The notes under the pieces were generated by a model. It was not told the DNA's origin. It saw only the letters and a list, made by a program, of their open reading frames with translations, and did no database searches. Both the position numbers and the translations under genes were made by a program. 64,000 nt of DNA from Patiria pectinifera (taxonomy: Eukaryota; Echinodermata; Asteroidea; Valvatida; Asterinidae), in assembly GCA_029964075.1 (NCBI GenBank), contig CM057135.1:32601366-32665365 (forward strand), read 5' to 3'. This document shows positions 8,946 through 44,949 of the stretch, one piece after another (position 1 is the stretch's first letter; every line of letters begins with the position of its first letter).

Positions 8946-9477
8946 CTCAGTGTAACGCAACAGTTTCCGTGTGACATAATGCTGTATTGTGGGAAAATAT
9001 CTATCACCAATCTTTCAAAATAACAATGAAACCATGCGAAATGTCACCAAGAAATGTGTTGACAATGTCTTATAATTAAACGAGATAACAAAACTACGAA
9101 TTCCCAGCAGTAAGAATTGCAAAAGTCAAGCAGTTCGTTCTCCTGGCTAAAAAATGCCACAGGGTGCTCCAAATATCACCAAACTGTATTAAAAAACAAT
9201 TTACGACCTCCATTAACATGAACAATGGACCTTGGAAAAACGTGTTATGGAGTAATAACAGTGCGTAATGGGTTTGGACAATCTTACGGACCCTGGATGT
9301 AATGATGCCATCATGGGCCTCGCGAGACGAGATTCAACCATTTGGCATCGAAAAACGGCCCTGGAAAAACAGTGCTACGTTATAAATGATGCTATAAAAT
9401 GACGTGTACACCTCGTGAGAGATCTTCTACAATATAATACAGGAAAAAAATCAGGTCATTTTTTACCCCACTTTGCT

Positions 9478-9640
9478 TCTTAAGAGCAAATTCTGGTCCC
9501 GGGAATATGGCCTGGGGAAATATGTTGCACGCGACTCACGCGCACCGTGCTATAGCGCGTCAGATGAGGCCCAGCCCCGATCTGACCTACGCGGTAGCCG
9601 TACTGCCCGCGTCACGGTAAAAAGCCCGGGACGCCTAAAA
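9478..9640. repeat. Conserved GC-rich island in copy A
   Basis: About 160 bp from CTTAAGAGCAAATTCTGG to AAAGCCCGGGACGCC is almost identical to 11003-11159 in copy B. Only about five substitutions were seen by eye, while flanking parts of the duplication are much more diverged. The island is GC- and CpG-rich. It lies in an open frame in both copies, but the differences seen in that frame all change amino acids, so protein constraint does not explain the conservation. Confidence 0.6.
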
Positions 9641-10190
9641 TGCAAAATGTACAATGATAGAGGTAATAACTGAGGGACTCGAAGAGCAGTTCAACCACTT
9701 CGCGGTGTAAGTCGGCCTTACTAAAAATAGACGCGTTAAGACAGTGGCCTCGTTATCTAGGCACGTCATCCAGGGTGCGACGAATGACGCCCAGTGATTT
9801 ATGAAATTTGACTTTTATTGTACATCGACGTAATTCGTTTATGCCAGTGACGCGCTTCTAAAAGAGGGGGGGGGGGGGCTTCAGACCCATCGACTTACTT
9901 AAAAAAAACACCTAAAGGTAATTATACAAGATTTGCAAGCATCAAAAAACAAAACTATTATGAAATACCTTACTTGACTGCAAAAGAATAAAGGCGCAGG
10001 CATCCTGTGAAATCGTGGCACCTAGTGTACTATCATTTGCAAGAAAAGTGGGATTTTTGTATCACTTTTCAACGATGGTCAGCCGATCATCATTGGGAAA
10101 AAAACCTGGATTTTTTTCAAATACTGTCCCCAATTGTACAAAATTTAGGTAGTCCACATATTTTTTGGGGGGTGGGGGTTGAAGAGTGGG

Positions 10191-11705
10191 GTTGATTTTT
10201 GTGCAGAGTCTGTTTTGCTGCGAATTACAAACGTATATATAGGAGTGTAACACAAGAACCACAAACGCCCTTGTGCATACTGTTTCCAGATACAATTATT
10301 TTGCAACTTTTTTATTAGATCTATACGTGAATTTTAATTTACAGTTAATATACCTCCATAATATTATTGGTTACTTCATTTTTATTTGCTAACTCAATTT
10401 GATTTACATCTGGAAAGAATGGAAATAACTGTTGCCATTGAGTGGAAATGAAATAATGATATCTGAGTTTGAGGCAACGTTCTAACGAAGTAGAGCTCTT
10501 TTTCACTGGTTCGTGTCCGGTGGGTATAATACACATTTTGCTCTAAACAGTCTTGTACGCGGAGTTCACACCCGTTGAAACGCAACATTGGTTCACATGT
10601 GACATAACGCTGTATAGCAGGGAAAAGATTGATAACCAATTTTTCAAAATATCATGAAACCATGCAAAATGTAACAAAAAATGTGTCGACAATGTCTTAT
10701 AATATATCAAGCAGTTCGTTAATTTACCTCCTCCATTATCAAAAACATGGACCTTGGAAAAACGTTTATGGAGAAATAACATACAGTGCGTAATGGATTT
10801 GCACAATATTACGAACCCTGGAAAAAATGATGTCATGGTCCTCATGAGGCGAGATTCACCCATTAAGCATCGAAAAACGGCCCTGGAAAAAAATTGTGCT
10901 ACGTTATAAATGATGCTACAAAATGATATGTACACCTCGCGAGAGATCTTGTACAATATAAAGCAGAAAAAAAATCAGGTCATTTTTTACCCAACTTTGC
11001 TTCTTAAGAGCAAATTCTGGTCCCGGGAATATGGCCCGGGGAAATATGTTGCACGCGACACACGCGCACCGTGCTATAGCGCGTCAGATGAGGCCCAGCC
11101 CCGATCTGACCTACGCGGTAGCCCTATTGCCCGCGTCACGGTAAAAAGCCCGGGACGCCAAAAATACGATGATACAGGTAAAATCTGAAATAATTGAGGG
11201 ACTCGAGAAGCCTTTTAACCAGTCTGCTGCATAAGTAGGCCTTACTATGTTAAAAATAGACGAATTAAAACAGCGGCCTAGTTATCTAGGCACCTCATCC
11301 AGGGTTCTGATGCGTTTTCGTGCGACGAATGACGCCCAGTGTTTTATAAAATGGACGCAGTTTGTCCTACGTCGACGTAATTCTTTATGCCAATGACGCG
11401 CTTGTAAAGGGGGGGGGGGTCATCGACTTACTACTTCAAAAAACTTAAGAGTAATATACAGCATTTGCAAGCATAAAAAAACACAACTACCAAATTATTA
11501 TGAAATACCTTAGGCCTACTTGACTGTAAGTAAATAAAAGTCTCAAGCATCATGTGAAATTTTCAAGAAAAGTGGAATTTTCGTATCAATTTCCAACGAT
11601 GGTCAGCCGACCATCATGACTTTTTTTCAAATACTGGCCCAGTATTACAAAATTAGTTAGACCACATTTTGTTTGCAACCAGTTACACATCCGTGAACAA
11701 GTGCA
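10191..11705. repeat. Large direct duplication, copy B
   Basis: This is the downstream member of the tandem pair, collinear with 8270-10190 apart from indels. Its right edge (about 11545-11700) matches the end of copy A, including CAACGATGGTCAGCCGA (10070 and 11594). The adjacent sequence GTTTGCAACCAGTTACA (11670) resembles the start of the next unit, so the repeat may originally have been longer. Function unknown. Confidence 0.75.
11003..11159. repeat. Conserved GC-rich island in copy B
   Basis: Partner of 9478-9640. The core GCACCGTGCTATAGCGCGTC is identical in both. See the copy A island for why coding constraint is unlikely. Confidence 0.6.
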
Positions 11706-16806: not shown

Positions 16807-17586
16807 AATTAGTCAGGCAGCTTATGCCAGCTTTTGGAATAGATGTGGACATTCCGGACAAAAGCGCCAAATTTTCCATACATGCACCTTATTGCCGTAG
16901 CTTTCAATTTTTGATAGGAACCAACTTATCCAAAAACAATATGGCGGCCATCTTGGATTTTAAAGATGGCTGCCATTGAAAACTTATTTTTGCCTATATC
17001 TCAACTTCTAAGCCACTTAGGAGTAAAGCTTTGGTCTCTAAACATACATTTTCAGGGTCAAGGAATGCAACTGTACCATTTGGGAAAGTATCAAATGGTT
17101 TGTTTGTCCAGATACAGTATTGTTGCCACTTAACATTGAAATCTTAGTGTCTAAACATATATTTGTCCAAACATACATTTTCAGGGTCAAGGAATGCAAC
17201 AATACCAGTGTCAAATGGTCAGTTTGTACACTATTGTGGCCATCTTTGATTTTGAAGATGGCCGCCAGATAATAATTGCAAATACTGTATTTGGATAAAC
17301 TAACCATTTGATACTTTCCTAAATGGTACAATTGCATTCCTTGACCCTGAAAATGTATGTTTAGACACCAAAACTTTAATCCTAAGTGGCTTAGAAGATG
17401 AGATATTGGTAGATATAGGTTTTTAATGGCCGCCATCTTTAAAATCCAAGATGGCCGCCATAATGTCATGGGATAAGTTGGTTCCTATCAAAAATTGAAA
17501 GCTAAGGCATTCAGGAGCATGTATGGAAAATGTGGCGCTTTTGTCCGGAATGTCCACATCCATTCACTAAGCTGCCTGACTAAATT
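16807..17586. mobile_element. Foldback element with about 310-bp inverted arms
   Basis: The termini are AATTAGTCAGGCAGCTTA and TAAGCTGCCTGACTAAATT. The arms run 16807-17118 and 17275-17586 and are roughly 85-90% matched by eye. Each arm carries ATGGCGGCCATCTTGGATTT-type sequence and the block TACATTTTCAGGGTCAAGGA. That block appears a third time in the loop (17175-17200), so the centre is also repetitive. It can fold into a hairpin of nearly 800 nt. No protein is encoded. It lies only 210 bp from the foldback element at 15882-16597. Confidence 0.75.
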
Positions 17587-31956: not shown

Positions 31957-32047
31957 TACCGCTCTGACACTCGACACTACTGGCTGAAATTTGCTTGACT
32001 CTTACTAGAGCAAATCCAGTTCAACACTCTTGATTTCAGAGACTCAC

Positions 32048-32836
32048 ATGCTAACCACACAGCAAGCCTCGTCACACAACAACATCGGCAATCAGCCCAG
32101 ATTTCAAGCCCTACACTACCGACGTCTCGATATGGTTGGAAGTGATCGTTTCCCTCTGCCTAGCATGCGGAACACACCCACAACGACCATGGCGAGCATG
32201 AGTTTCCTACCCGGTAGCGAGTCCAAGAAAGGTTGCTTGGTGCTGGTGATGGGACCCCGGCGACAGCGGCTTCAGGTCAGCATCTACGCCAAGACGCTGG
32301 ACCCCTTCGTGGTCTTCTACCCTGACAAGAAGCACTGCCGACATTGCGGCGTGCTCAAGCTGAAAGGCTGCCGAGTTGAACCAGTCAGCGGCAGTGACAC
32401 AGACTTTAGAGTCATCCCCAAGAGCAGCGACGGCGGCAAGGTGATGGTCCTGGGTGCTGACTCTCGCGCCGAGCGCGAGGAGTGGATCAAGGCGCTCACC
32501 ACCCCTATCGTGGCGGAAGTGGGCCTGAGCGGCCGGCCGAGATCCATCTCGCTCCGACAGCAGCGGATGCCGTCCCTTCCTGAGATCGACGAGATCTGCT
32601 CCGATTCATCAGACTTGGAGGAAGAGGAGGAAGAATCGTGCCACGAACTTGAGTCCGAGCATGGAGTGAGCTCACCCTCCTTGCCACGCTCACGGCACGA
32701 GTTCCTCCACAACCTGGACAAATTCGGCCGCCGGCCAAGGTGCTGCACGGTCCATACCTCCACCCCGGCACCCCACGACTGCGACAGACCGTGGGACGCG
32801 CCCAAACCATCCCGTGCCATCCCAAACGGCATGTAA
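32048..32836 (+). CDS. PH-domain-containing protein, intronless
   Basis: Encodes a predicted 262-residue intracellular protein; I cannot name the orthologue. A PH domain spans about residues 60-151. It starts KKGCLVLV, has a basic RRQR stretch at 71-74 like the phosphoinositide-contacting loop, and ends with the signature helix EEWIKAL, whose invariant Trp is residue 146. PH domains bind phosphoinositides or proteins at membranes. After it come RPRSIS (163-168, fitting the RxRxxS motif of AGC kinases), an acidic run of Asp and Glu (about 186-204) and a basic, Pro-rich tail. No signal peptide or membrane segment is seen. The frame upstream of 32048 opens only with a TTG, so the first ATG (32048) is used. 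Its context is weak, and Met29 (32132) or Met48 (32189, ACCATGG) could also start. The coding part is clearly GC-richer than its surroundings. Confidence 0.85.
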   Translation: MLTTQQASSHNNIGNQPRFQALHYRRLDMVGSDRFPLPSMRNTPTTTMASMSFLPGSESKKGCLVLVMGPRRQRLQVSIYAKTLDPFVVFYPDKKHCRHCGVLKLKGCRVEPVSGSDTDFRVIPKSSDGGKVMVLGADSRAEREEWIKALTTPIVAEVGLSGRPRSISLRQQRMPSLPEIDEICSDSSDLEEEEEESCHELESEHGVSSPSLPRSRHEFLHNLDKFGRRPRCCTVHTSTPAPHDCDRPWDAPKPSRAIPNGM

Positions 32837-40108: not shown

Positions 40109-40114
40109 CATTCG
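40109..40114. repeat. Target-site duplication, left copy
   Basis: CATTCG directly abuts the left terminus of the large foldback element and is repeated at its right end (44944-44949). This is the expected footprint of transposition. Confidence 0.65.
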
Positions 40115-40139
40115 TATGGTGTACTATAAAGGACACCTA

Positions 40140-41100
40140 TCTGTTATCGTCGTGCGTGTGGGGAGCTCCGTCGTGCCTGTGAGCAGGTCCGTCGTGCCTG
40201 TGAGCAGGTCCGTCGTGTTTGTGAGCAGACCGTCGTGCGTGTGGGGAGCTCCGTCGTGCCTGTGAGCAAGTCCGTCGTGTTTGTGAGCAGACCGTCGTAC
40301 GTGTGAGTAAAACCGTCGTGCCTGTGAGCAGGTCCGTCGTGTTTGTGAGCAGAGCGTCGTACGTGTGAGTAAAACCGTCGTGCCTGTGAGCAAGTCCGTC
40401 GTGTTTGTGAGCAGACCGTCGTGCGTGTGAGTAAAACCGTCGTGCCTGTGAGCAGGTCCGTCGTGTTTGTGAGCAGACCGTCGTGCGTGTGAGTAAAACC
40501 GTCGTGCCTGTGAGCAGGTCCGTCGTGTTTGTGAGCAGGTCCGTCGTGCGTGTGGGGAGGTCCGTCGTGTTTGTGAGTAAAACCGTCGTACATGTGAGTA
40601 AAGCCGTCGTGTTTGTGAGTAAAACCGTCGTGCGTGTGAGTAAAACCGTCGTGCCTGTGAGCAAGTCCGTCGTGTTTGTGAGCAGAGCGTCGTACGTGTG
40701 AGTAAAACCGTCGTGCCTGTGAGCAGGTCCGTCGTGTTTGTGAGCAGACCGTCGTGCGTGTGAGTAAAACCGTCGTGCCTGTGAGCAGGTCCGTCGTGTT
40801 TGTGAGCAGACCGTCGTGCGTGTGAGTAAAACCGTCGTGCCTGTGAGCAGGTCCGTCGTGTTTGTGAGCAGACCGTCGTGCGTGTGAGTAAAACCGTCGT
40901 GCCTGTGAGCAGGTCCGTCGTGTTTGTGAGCAGGTCCGTCGTGCGTGTGGGGAGGTCCGTCGTGTTTGTGAGTAAAACCGTCGTACGTGTGAGTAAAGCC
41001 GTCGTGTTTGTGAGTAAAACCGTCGTGCGTGTGAGTAAAACCGTCGTGTTTGTGAGTAAAACCGTCGTGCGTGTGAGTAAAGCCGTCGTGCCTATGAGGC
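40140..41100. repeat. Left tandem array of 20-21 bp units
   Basis: About 46 units, each starting CCGTCGTG and continuing xxTGTGAGxA. Three unit types (ending GAGTAAAA, GAGCAGGT and GAGCAGA) alternate, giving a 62-bp higher-order repeat. A variant unit ends GGGGAGCT near the outer end and GGGGAGGT further in. Within the array a block of about 390 bp, marked by GTGGGGAGGTCCGTCGTGTT (40551 and 40947), is itself duplicated. Every unit carries at least two CpG sites. Confidence 0.95.
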
Positions 41101-41250
41101 GCCATGTGTAAATAAATTATTTAACAAAATTATTTATATATAATTCATTATTTAATATATAATGCAGTTTTCCGGTCAATTATATGTAAATAATTGTTTT
41201 GCAGTTTGCATTATATGTAAATAAATTTATTTGCCACTGCAATATTTATA
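41101..41250. repeat. Left unique inner arm
   Basis: From GCCATGTGTAAATAAATTAT inward, matched in reverse complement by 43425-43561 with very few differences. It contains TTTCCGGTCAATTATATG and TGTTTTGCAGTTTGCATTAT blocks. It corresponds to the non-repetitive inner domain of TU-type elements. Confidence 0.85.
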
Positions 41251-41520
41251 TATATAATTTTTTTTGGCAACCTTATTATTTATATATAATTTTATGCAAC
41301 CTTATTATTTATATATAATTTATTTGGTACCTCATTATTTACATATTTTTTTTGCACGCTTTAATTATTTATTATATGATTTATTTGGTACCTTATTATT
41401 TAAATATAATTTTTTCCACACTTTATTTATTGATATATAATGCATTATTTATTATATAATTCATTATTTATTATATAATGCATTATTTATTATATAATGC
41501 ATTATTATATTTTATCACTT
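41251..41520. repeat. Left AT-rich minisatellite
   Basis: Degenerate units of roughly 30-40 bp containing TTATTATTTATATATAATTT, often separated by GGTACC or GCAACC. The right side (about 43140-43424) has the same kind of repeats inverted, but unit order is less well conserved than in the inner arms. Confidence 0.75.
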
Positions 41521-43139
41521 CAAGATAAAAGGCATCATGCGGCACAGACACATACTGTTGATCAGTCACGTAATTTTCTTCAATCAGCTGGTTGTTGCCA
41601 TGGGGTACGTGTGCGCGGTAAACAGTAGCCTAATCGCGTCGGTGGGCGTAGCCTTTCGCCCAGGCCTTCGTAGCATAGAGCGGCGGAGTTGCGAAGACCC
41701 GAAGCGAAAGGAGCAAAGATTAAGTCAGCACGCACGAGTGGCAAAGCCACGAGGCCTTTTGCAACTTGATTTTGTTGAATTATTCATAGTTTTCATGCAA
41801 ATAAGAAGCGTGCTGAAGGTTAACCAATCACAACGCGGATTTTGCCTAGTCGCTTCCATTTTTAAAAGAAGGGTGAGTAAGGAAACCGTAAGATCAAATA
41901 ACTGTAAGTTCAGATGAAAAATAAGTTCATACCCTCAAATAATTTGTTGAAATACCTTTATAAGTAAAGTTAAAATAAGATAATGTAATAACAATTACGC
42001 AGTCACGATCTCATGGAAAACTAGACTCGCCATTTTTGTTTTTAAATTTTGTGCAAGCATCCGACGTGACGTGTCGACGCGTCCGCGTCCGGGTGGTAGC
42101 CACGCACGCATGAAAAGGCTGATGATTGGTTGGAATTTTGCTACCCTGTTGGGGTAGCAAAAAGATTATAAAGAAAAACATGAGAATTTCTCGACAACTT
42201 GCAAAGGCACTCGTGGCTTCGCCACTCGCATGTGTGGTCTCCATCTCCAGTCGCTTCGCGTTCGCCGCTTTGAATGCGGGCAAGTTAAGCCACGATGGCG
42301 TTGGTGAAAGGCTACGGTGGGCGCGGCCAGGGAAAACCTGGCCGGCCCAATTATTTGCGGACGTGACATATTGAGGTTAGAGAAATTGTTCGTATCGCTA
42401 AAATGATATGGATCGCGCGCCCAAAGGTAAAAGAAGCAATATCGATACAGTGTATTAAGTCAAGTTCATTAATTAGGTTCAGAAAGTTCACTTCGGCTTA
42501 GCTGAAGCCGCTATACATGGAAAATAAACCCACCACATCCCCTTCGCCTCCAACATTAAGACATTAATTAAGGGCGAGATATTACTGGGTACGACGGGCA
42601 GTGCCTCAATTCAAAAGAAATAAATAGTTCTTAAGTAAGATTTTGAATTTTGACCAATTTTCACAAGTTCGTTTTAATCTTTAGAAACACTATGCCTAGC
42701 ACCCTCTAGTACTGGTGGGGCTTATTCCAACCGTGTTTTCCAACGGTGGGAACAAATCGGCGTGCCTTTTTCAAGTTTATTCTTAAGAAATTTCGGCATT
42801 TTTCAAGTTTATTCTTAAGTAATTTAGGCGTATTATAAATTCAAGTCACGTGACAAATAACACTGTGACTAACACTAATTTGTTCTGATGGGGTTAGTAT
42901 CCAACCGTAGTTTCTAGCGGTGGATATATTCGCAGTGAATGATTGGCTAGCGTGCCAAGATTTGGGCCCAGTGATGCCAAGCATGGCAAGGATTTGGGGC
43001 AAACGTACGTGCCCCCGTGTTTTCTGGCCAATGTGCCCAAACTGTTTGGGTTAATAACATTTGAATAAAAAAATAAAATAGCGGCTGGAAAAAACATGCC
43101 AAAAGTCAAACTTTTGTTTCAAGGTGTTTTTGTGTGTGG
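41521..43139. other. Central core of the foldback element
   Basis: No ORF with a recognisable transposase or other domain; the longest is 126 codons (41537-41917). The core holds a second, diverged inverted pair: about 41640-41775 (GTAGCCTTTCGCCCA ... GAGTGGCAAAGCCACGAG) against about 42190-42325. There is a perfect hairpin, TTTTGCTACCC-tgttg-GGGTAGCAAAA, at 42136-42162. A duplicated small stem (CCAACCGT...CGGTGG) occurs at 42727-42750 and 42901-42923. An exact repeat of TTTTTCAAGTTTATTCTTAA lies at 42769 and 42798. The core may be an older element captured between the arms. Confidence 0.65.
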
Positions 43140-43424
43140 TCTGAGAATAATTATTATATAATGCATTATATAATAAATAATGAAAGTGTGCCAAATATAT
43201 ATATATAAATAATGAGGTACCAAATAAATTATATATAAATAATACAGTGCACAAAAATTATATATAAATGAAAAAGTTGCAAATAAATTATAAATAAATT
43301 TTAAAAGGGTGCAAAAATTATATATAGATAATAAGTTTGCAAATAAATTATATATAAAAAATTCTAGTTTGCCCAAAAATATACGTAAATAATTAGGTTG
43401 CAAAAAAAATTATATCTATAAATA
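43140..43424. repeat. Right AT-rich minisatellite
   Basis: Degenerate units with AAATTATATATAAATAAT separated by short unique pieces such as GTGCAAAA and GTTGCAAA. This is the inverted counterpart of 41251-41520. Confidence 0.75.
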
Positions 43425-43561
43425 TTGCAGTGGCAAATAAATTTATTTACATATAATGCAAACTGCAAAACAATTATTTACATATAATTGACCGGAAAAC
43501 TGCATTATATATTAAATAATGAATTATATATAAATAATTTTGTTAAATAATTTATTTACAC
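43425..43561. repeat. Right unique inner arm
   Basis: Near-exact reverse complement of 41101-41250, from TATTGCAGTGGCAAATAAAT to TTTATTTACACATGGCGCC. Confidence 0.85.
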
Positions 43562-44915
43562 ATGGCGCCTCATAGGCACGACGGCTTTACTCACACGCAC
43601 GACGGTTTTACTCACAAACACGACGGTTCTACTCACAGGCACGACGGTTTTACTCACAAACACGACAGTTTTACTCACACGCACGACGGTTTTACTCACA
43701 AACACGACGGTTTTACTCACACGCACGACGGTTTTACTCACACGCACGACGGTCTGCTCACAAACACGACGGACCTGCTCACAGGCACGACGGTTTTACT
43801 CACACGCACGACGGTCTGCTCACAAACACGACGGACCTGCTCACAGGCACGACGGTTTTACTCACACGCACGACGGTCTGCTCACAAACACGACGGACCT
43901 GCTCACAGGCACGACGGTTTTACTCACACGCACGACGGTCTGCTCACAAACACGACGGACTTGCTCACAGGCACGACGGTTTTACTCACACGTACGACGC
44001 TCTGCTCACAAACACGACGGACTTGCTCACAGGCACGACGGTTTTACTCACACGCACGACGGTCTGCTCACAAACACGACGGACTTGCTCACAGGCACGA
44101 CGGAGCTCCCCACACGCACGACGGTCTGCTCACAAACACGACGGACCTGCTCACAGGCACGACGGACCTGCTCACAGGCACGACGGACCTGCTCACAGGC
44201 ACGACGGACCTGCTCACAGGCACGACGGTTTTACTCACACGCACGACGGTCTGCTCACAAACACGACGGACTTGCTCACAGGCACGACGGTTTTACTCAC
44301 ACGCACGACGGTCTGCTCACAAACACGACGGACTTGCTCACAGGCACGACGGTTTTACTCACACGCACGACGCTCTGCTCACAAACACGACGGACCTGCT
44401 CACAGGCACGACGGAGCTCCCCACACGCACGACGGTCTGCTCACAAACACGACGGACCTGCTCACAGGCACGACGGTTTTACTCACACGCACGACGGTCT
44501 GCTCACAAACACGACGGACTTGCTCACAGGCACGACGGTTTTACTCACACGCACGACGGTCTGCTCACAAACACGACGGACTTGCTCACAGGCACGACGG
44601 TTTTACTCACACGCACGACGGTCTGCTCACAAACACGACGGACCTGCTCACAGGCACGACGGTTTTACTCACACGTACGACGCTCTGCTCACAAACACGA
44701 CGGACTTGCTCACAGGCACGACGGTTTTACTCACACGCACGACGGTCTGCTCACAAACACGACGGACCTGCTCACAAACACGACGGACCTGCTCACAGGC
44801 ACGACGGAGCTCCCCACACGCACGACGGTCTGCTCACAAACACGACGGACCTGCTCACAGGCACGACGGACCTGCTCACAGGCACGACGGAGCTCCCCAC
44901 ACGCACGACGATAAC
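43562..44915. repeat. Right tandem array of 20-21 bp units
   Basis: About 65 inverted copies of the left-array unit (CACGACGG per unit on the plus strand), with the same 62-bp higher-order order. Rare variants seen on the left, such as CGTACGACGCTCTGCTC, occur here too (43990 and 44674), so the arms share ancestry or have exchanged sequence. A run of four identical GGCACGACGGACCTGCTCAC units at about 44155-44220 is specific to this arm. All three plus-strand frames stay open (ORFs of 450, 303 and 278 codons) because the unit has no stop codon on this strand. Confidence 0.95.
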
Positions 44916-44943
44916 AGATAGGTGTCCTTTATAGTACACCATA

Positions 44944-44949
44944 CATTCG
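44944..44949. repeat. Target-site duplication, right copy
   Basis: CATTCG, matching 40109-40114. Confidence 0.65.

Follow-up and report, generated by a model that had tools for sequence, protein, structure and literature searches.

What is the 4829-bp repeat structure that lies complete within the window, a stretch of 64,000 nucleotides of contig CM057135.1 of Patiria pectinifera (blue bat star), and which enzyme moves it? A first-pass annotation had read it as a TU-like foldback transposon, perhaps of an undescribed family. The foldback reading, with its 6-bp duplication, is upheld by genomic copies, target-site duplications (TSDs) and empty sites. An undescribed foldback family is plausible, and no description of it was found in the literature searched, which comprised open-licence papers only. 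The element is very probably a foldback that belongs, as a non-autonomous member, to a cut-and-paste family of IS3EU type, for which mobilisation in trans and an array-site mechanism are proposed; if so, IS3EU joins the superfamilies that give rise to foldbacks.

The element boundaries are exact, with CATTCG directly adjoining the termini TATGG..CCATA at both ends (Table 1). The opposite-oriented 40-bp termini noticed earlier are indeed identical, and the identity in fact reaches 154 bp inward from either end. Tandem units of 20-21 bp were likewise recovered in both arms, where main unit types of 21, 20 and 21 bp make up a 62-bp higher-order repeat (unit parsing, TRF) and where both arms share the unit order FAABF at the start and EKL at the end, in our own unit lettering. 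In the right array the script returned 64 units, one of them a 42-bp pair, giving a count of 65. The description of the inner domains as unique had to be abandoned: they are AT-rich, inverted and themselves built of degenerate 30/60-bp repeats, the left matching the right exactly up to position 41250 and being about 72% alike beyond it, and the loop between them holds a separate 666-bp transposon. Long inverted tandem-repeat arms around a middle domain, with arrays in both arms of the parsed copies, place the element in the foldback class, and its arms, filled with repeats, are able to fold back and pair. Four loop ORFs compared with Pfam gave no match, and neither tRNA genes nor, at the gathering threshold, Rfam families were found in the window.

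Table 1. Features of the foldback element and its flanks (window positions).
Feature	Position	Strand	Evidence
Target-site duplication CATTCG, left	40109..40114	.	sequence and empty-site alignment
Whole non-autonomous foldback element, 4829 bp	40115..44943	+	
Terminal cap, 33 bp, TATGGTGTACTATAAAGGACACCTATCTGTTAT	40115..40147	+	
Left array, 46 units of 20-21 bp, 62-bp higher-order repeat	40148..41104	+	
Left AT-rich inner arm, degenerate 30/60-bp units	41105..41515	+	
Loop	41516..43157	+	
Nested transposon's 9-bp TSD, CGGTGGGCG	41640-41648 and 42315-42323		
Nested 666-bp transposon within loop	41649..42314	.	
Right AT-rich inner arm	43158..43562	-	
Right array, 65 units of 20-21 bp	43563..44910	-	
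Inverted terminal cap, 33 bp	44911..44943	-	
Target-site duplication CATTCG, right	44944..44949	.	sequence and empty-site alignment

The termini are not confined to this locus. With up to 3 mismatches allowed, the terminal 23-mer occurs at 185 places in the 613.5-Mb genome (90 forward, 95 reverse), and the reversed pattern, used as a control, gave 0 in either orientation. The 6-bp direct repeat seen at the flanks is a TSD, exact 6-bp duplications being present in 18 of the 19 parsed copies; the exception, C13b, has GTTTTG/CTTTTG. When the two flanks of the window element were joined, the resulting sequence matched 38 other places across the insertion point, and in all six of these that were fetched the element is absent and the sequence runs uninterrupted, so that uninserted copies of the host repeat agree with the CATTCG boundary. 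Another insertion (L020) lies within a second copy's own array, flanked by TGCCTG, and joining its flanks restores the regular units. The window element is thus a discrete mobile unit. A 12.3-kb copy on C13, parsed separately from the 19, has GTTTCA on both sides; it was considered as an autonomous element and rejected, being another array subfamily interrupted by an LTR retrotransposon that is of Gypsy type on a reading of its translated frames. The window loop finds full-length matches at nine genome places including its own; other loop matches are free of the nested insert. Among 16 readable rows for the nested-insert site (15 different inserts or sites, as C5out contains C5in; C4b, C10 and C21a, where the script did not read the site, are left out), nine are empty, six are filled and one (C3) has an internally deleted insert. 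In IMG/VR viral contigs the terminal 23-mer had 0 matches, and an 18-bp segment taken from an array unit had a single match (L001), without an array, which is taken as chance.

A candidate autonomous partner, 18.7 kb long, lies at C20:30545207-30563910 with the TSD CATTGT on both sides. Of its two 33-bp caps one is identical to that of the window element and one differs by a single mismatch, and both of its arrays hold the same unit types. A genome-wide rva_4 search did not have this element among its matches, and it was found only by DNA-level reading of its interior. Read exon by exon, its gene is intron-split and of rva_4/integrase type: four stretches are 41-43% identical to an rva_4 transposase in alignment (E 2.8e-10, 1.1e-8, 1.1e-8 and 0.007), and the rva_4 profile on two exons gave E values of 4.9e-5 and 0.015, neither match reaching the curated cut-off. 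The candidate D, D and E motifs are HIDQYDKL, CIQMDRGTEN and QRIERYW, the last taken from a single-frame motif scan and not from an alignment. A copy on C22 is 99% identical to the C20 element over 5.5 kb, and the transposase DNA of the C20 element matches four loci, the large element being far rarer than the foldback. A comparison with pieces L016, L017 and L025 of the large elements, outside the middle piece L043, revealed neither the loop nor the AT-rich inner arms of the window element.

IS3EU elements are bounded by TA..TA, and their TSDs are usually of 6 bp (PMC10045372, available sections); those of rust fungi have TAYGG..CCRTA ends, 6-bp TSDs and terminal inverted repeats (TIRs) longer than 30 bp (PMC12730594, available sections). 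The ends of the window element conform to both patterns, and the 6-bp TSD is shared by its copies, the C13 copy and the C20 partner. For the enzyme, the IS3EU type was taken as an IS3/IS481-like DDE transposase without an HHCC domain; termini, TSD length and the integrase-like core suggest that rva_4 is IS3EU. Like IS3EU (IS3EU/GingerRoot), this family combines TA..TA ends, a 6-bp TSD and, in the partner, an integrase-like DDE transposase, but the window element itself is without a transposase and has long arms of 20-21-bp arrays. Such arms are not described in the available sections of PMC10045372 and PMC12730594.

Other origins were weighed against the same evidence. That a passive palindrome or array grew in place by replication slippage, with CATTCG repeated by coincidence, would suit the variation of array length and unit order by copy, but is refuted by the many places of the cap, the exact TSDs, the empty sites and the nested self-insertion, and hardly any credence is left to it. 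The TU comparison made earlier stands for the general body plan, TU of Strongylocentrotus purpuratus, likened here by description only, also being an echinoderm foldback with tandem-repeat outer arms. The host of TU is a sea urchin and not a starfish, and the 15-bp outer units and 8-bp TSDs given for it in the first-pass annotation differ from the 20-21-bp units and 6-bp TSDs found here; the termini and the partner's transposase point instead to IS3EU. That the element is a TU of the sea urchin kind, or some other Mutator-like (MULE) foldback, is very improbable, even though most foldbacks seem to be Mutator members according to the available text of PMC4079207, where the sea urchin foldback is also cited. 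Tetris, of the mostly Mutator FB/Tm1/Tetris type, has a tandem-repeat outer domain, an inner domain and a non-coding middle, as here, but its units are of about 220 bp and its 8-10-bp TSDs place it in Mutator (PMC4079207, available text). Mutator-type foldbacks are defined by such TSDs and a MULE transposase, whereas the copies here have 6-bp TSDs and the partner sharing cap and units bears an rva_4-type transposase.

The integrase fold of the enzyme is related to that of Polintons, and a shortened Polinton/Maverick, with 6-bp TSDs, long TIRs and an integrase-type enzyme, might come to mind. Polintons end in AG..CT, however, whereas the window element ends in TATGG..CCATA, and when 12 separate open stretches of the large element were scanned against Pfam, rva_4 and HECT were detected but none of the Polinton genes. 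This origin too is very doubtful, despite a 6-bp TSD also being given for Polintons (PMC10045372, available sections). A further candidate, hAT6 (a hAT with a 6-bp TSD), was rejected. The hAT terminal signature is YARNG, and TATGG has T where R is needed. That the element is of IS3EU type but is moved by a transposase other than that of C20/C22, for instance that of another rva_4 family, is unlikely: the genome holds 87 rva_4 matches, and in one family (C16/C19) the end, TAYGG..GGACA, is related and the units contain TCGTGCG, but among the enzyme-bearing elements fetched only those of C20/C22 have both this cap and these 21-bp units. The gene of the C20 partner is most likely responsible for moving the window element.

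In the C16/C19 family the encoded protein gives an rva_4 match at E 1.4e-23; its elements are bounded by TACGG..CCGTA, lie between perfect 6-bp TSDs and bear an array of 20/43-bp units at either terminus. Arrays of 20-22-bp units stand beside a TAYGG-type end in three of the five other rva_4 groups examined, which suggests that the units are transposase-binding sites. A further group (L037) has arrays that are not tied to an end, and in L034/L042 no array of such units was seen, so that their presence in all rva_4 families was rejected. When the five groups (L032-L037) were scanned with the first 18 bp of the cap and a limit of 6 mismatches, no site had fewer than 5; L032 and L036 each had one site with 5, and all other sites had 6. 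It is possible, if somewhat doubtful, that terminal arrays of 20-22-bp units, often palindromic and of higher order, are a general architecture of rva_4/IS3EU-type elements in this starfish and that the foldbacks are their non-autonomous amplifications. This would be a third superfamily origin after Mutator and P, in which binding site, higher-order repeat and hairpin arm are one sequence, sometimes swapped between arms.

The period and conservation of the 20-21-bp units likewise suggest a role as putative transposase-binding sites. The large element's transposase would act in trans on the foldback, whose cap and units, each unit spanning about two DNA turns, would offer it a series of binding sites, and the foldback would be excised and re-inserted with cuts staggered by 6 bp. 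Galileo, a Drosophila foldback of the P superfamily with 7-bp TSDs, resembles the window element in its long, internally repetitive TIRs, though the superfamily is different. The Galileo TIRs are reported, in the title of PMC3688188, to contain multiple binding sites for the THAP domain of the transposase. Foldbacks can be found without their enzyme, as with Tetris (PMC4079207, available text); here a partner that carries one, and that shares the termini and arm repeats of the foldback, is present in the same genome, so that mobilisation in trans and what the repeats in the arms do are directly testable.

The arms keep a copy-by-copy record of array turnover and of exchange between arms. Array lengths and unit orders differ among copies, from which it follows that the arrays expand and contract, possibly through unequal exchange or slippage. 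Sequence exchange between the two arms of a copy is visible in at least two of 17 copies, and may come about when occasional conversion or crossover, via hairpin or cruciform pairing, carries sequence from arm to arm. Wholesale homogenisation was rejected: across these copies (C21a, with no loop to orient by, and C5out, which contains C5in, were dropped) the mean distance between an a arm and the a arms of other copies is 0.021, against 0.054 between an a arm and its own b arm, indicating that the exchange is sporadic.

The foldback element in the window (Table below) belongs to a mobile family of the blue bat star, the starfish P. pectinifera. The assembly searched comprises 613.5 Mb in 1020 contigs; the published assembly is reported at 615 Mb in 22 + 1458 scaffolds, slightly above this figure (PMC10511450). 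A 23-mer from the cap, the 33-bp terminal sequence of the element, matches with up to three mismatches at 90 forward and 95 reverse places, and the reversed control matches at none in either orientation, so the termini at these 185 places are not confined to the window. Twenty regions were fetched, picked from clusters of matches in the genome; the clusters on C8, C16 (at 12.4 Mb), C4 (2.5 Mb), C21 (30.7 Mb), C2 (9.1 Mb) and C453 lie outside this sample. Seventeen of the regions yielded 18 two-ended elements, or 19 with that of the window, ranging from 1416 to 7835 bp; in the longest, a composite, another copy is nested. In the remaining three (two on C20, one on C22) a single end was seen, and these pointed to the partner element described below. 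An exact 6-bp target-site duplication (TSD) borders 18 of the 19, with G as its sixth base in 14 of the 18; the sole exception, copy C13b, reads GTTTTG/CTTTTG and has an extra end. Divergence of the distal loop across 17 copies averages 2.4% (median 1.9%).

Coordinates of the foldback element, its nested transposon and the partner element
Feature	Position	Length	Flanks and ends
Foldback element	window 40115-44943	4829 bp	CATTCG directly flanking each side
Nested transposon	window 41649-42314	666 bp	9-bp TSD CGGTGGGCG; ends TAGCCTTTC..GAAAGGCTA
Partner element	C20:30545207-30563910	18,704 bp	same cap at both ends; CATTGT on both sides

Each arm runs inward from the cap (TATGGTGTACTATAAAGGACACCTATCTGTTAT) through a GC-rich array and an AT-rich domain to the loop. 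The inverted ends are identical over 154 bp, further than the 40 bp given in the first-pass annotation, which had also rightly described a 6-bp direct repeat (CATTCG on both sides) and short tandem repeats in both arms, here 46 units on the left and 65 on the right, each of 20-21 bp. Its "unique inner domains" are present as domains, but are not unique, being made of degenerate 30/60-bp units that are likewise inverted between the arms. Three main unit types (21 + 20 + 21 bp) form a 62-bp higher-order repeat, and both arms share the unit order FAABF at the start and EKL at the end (letters denote unit types).

The insertion boundary is visible in unoccupied sites. In segment L020 one copy lies within the array of another, with TSD TGCCTG, and joining its flanks brings back regular units. 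The left flank of the window element is part of a dispersed repeat, and among the 40 matches listed, 38 places, not counting the two flanks of the window element itself, align with the joined flanks past the insertion point, by 8-19 bases. The six of these places that were fetched all continue across the site with no element in it, in keeping with the boundary first drawn at the CATTCG repeats; they are diverged, with an exact CATTCG in none of the six, and one (L047) is short by four bases.

The 666-bp transposon nested in the loop is a separate one. Among 16 rows read by script, its site is empty (47-52 bp between anchors) in nine, filled in six and occupied by an internally deleted insert in one (copy C3); C5out and C5in count one and the same insert, and copies C4b, C10 and C21a fall outside the 16. 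Foldbacks with and without the insert are both dispersed, and thus the family moved in both states. The insert also occurs alone at a minimum of 14 further places (40 scored of 654 candidates). A second array subfamily is marked by cap position 31, which is C or A rather than T in 15 forward and 17 reverse exact caps (32 in total). It includes a C13 copy with 41-bp units (C13:13378557-13390843; L030, L031), which contains a putative Gypsy-type LTR retrotransposon, whose 717-bp LTRs are 100% identical, indicating recent insertion. At C1:24603487-24611460 and C1:24927346-24936088, positions among the cap matches listed show apparent nested foldback pairs with same-orientation caps 24 bp apart, suggesting either two insertions into the same cap site or a duplicated segment.

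A candidate source of enzyme for the family is the C20 partner, whose left and right caps differ from the window cap by one and zero mismatches and whose arrays (44 and 87 unit starts) consist mostly of the same lettered units. Its interior codes for an intron-split transposase, four stretches of which are 41-43% identical to a 292-aa rva_4 protein of another element (E = 2.8e-10, 1.1e-8, 1.1e-8 and 0.007). The D, D and E residues lie in HIDQYDKL, CIQMDRGTEN and QRIERYW, the last from a motif scan only. Pfam rva_4 (PF24764) is found on two exons at E-values of 4.9e-5 and 0.015, both below the curated cut-off, and on none of the other eight stretches in the same scan. At the DNA level the transposase region has matches at four loci: one on C20, one on C22 (99% identical to the C20 partner over 5.5 kb) and two on C7, where the identity is 85-95% in pieces. 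Enzyme-bearing copies are few next to the 185 caps, as is usual for autonomous elements relative to non-autonomous ones. The partner also carries a HECT-domain exon (L043:4094-4456, minus strand, E = 1.4e-8), part of a second gene opposite in strand to the transposase and probably a passenger of the autonomous transposon.

The transposase of the enzyme-bearing element would bind both cap and array. In a script survey of 1465 units from 18 copies (composite C5out left out), positions 10-13, 15, 17 and 21 of the 21-bp units are at least 99% one base and positions 8, 9, 16 and 18-20 vary; positions 1-7 look constant but constitute the search pattern, and their constancy is not independent. The near-two-turn period and the conserved TGTG.G.A next to the search core are consistent with a series of putative transposase-binding sites. 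Multiple such sites have been reported in the terminal inverted repeats of Galileo (PMC3688188).

Array length varies from copy to copy, and the arms may occasionally exchange sequence. Over the first 200 bp inside the array (17 a arms and 17 b arms, the two inverted arms of each copy), mean distances between copies are 0.021 for a versus a, 0.020 for b versus b and 0.058 for a versus b; within one copy, a and b differ by 0.054, about the between-copy a-versus-b value. At alignment column 74 the window a arm has G, a base found in two of the 17 a arms and 14 of the 17 b arms; its T at column 110 is unique among a arms and present in 11 of 17 b arms. For 211 columns (41040-41250) it is identical to the b arm of the same element, after which identity falls to ~72%. 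Conversely, columns 52-57 of the C4b b arm hold an a-type insertion seen in no other of the 17 b arms and in six of 17 a arms, and column 74 has an a-type T. Column 163 matches the proper arm type in both. These patterns, with few sites per case, suggest that the arms sporadically undergo conversion or crossing over; the latter would be accompanied by inversion of the middle of the element.

IS3EU elements are described with TA..TA ends and usually a 6-bp TSD (PMC10045372), and fungal members with TAYGG..CCRTA (PMC12730594); most foldbacks have been assigned to Mutator, with exceptions (PMC4079207). The titles of 35 papers mentioning IS3EU include none on foldbacks or starfish, a search pairing echinoderms with IS3EU excludes little, and a Repbase or Dfam entry may exist. 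The rva_4 domain matches at 87 places in the P. pectinifera genome and in none of 14 control genomes. Of five groups of relatives fetched, C16/C19 has TACGGAGCCCCTAAAGGGACATCC at both ends, exact 6-bp TSDs (AAGTCA, GTAGGG) and 20/43-bp arrays with core TCGTGCGCACGA next to both caps. Segments L036/L040 and L035/L041 each gave a single end, CCRTA, preceded by arrays of palindromic 21- and 22-bp units; L037 has 31-bp arrays untied to an end, and no array of this kind was found in L034/L042. The window family, C16/C19 and L036/L040 share TAYGG at cap positions 1-5 and GGACA at 17-21, while the L035/L041 cap has only TAYGG in common with the window family. The 8-mer GTCGTGCG occurs in array units of both the window element and C16/C19, which is no more than suggestive. 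C7 carries 38 of the 87 rva_4 matches, 35 of which lie in its first 23.3 Mb, as well as two of the four transposase loci, a share of matches exceeding any single chromosome's share of the genome; it perhaps includes a region rich in old transposons. Elsewhere in the window, an open frame with a PH domain (32009-32836, plus strand, E = 7.6e-7) is probably a host gene exon, and a 285-bp inverted repeat (16837-17121 / 17281-17565, 91%) and a 0.8-kb direct duplication (9198-9957 / 10721-11489, 82%) are perhaps other transposons.
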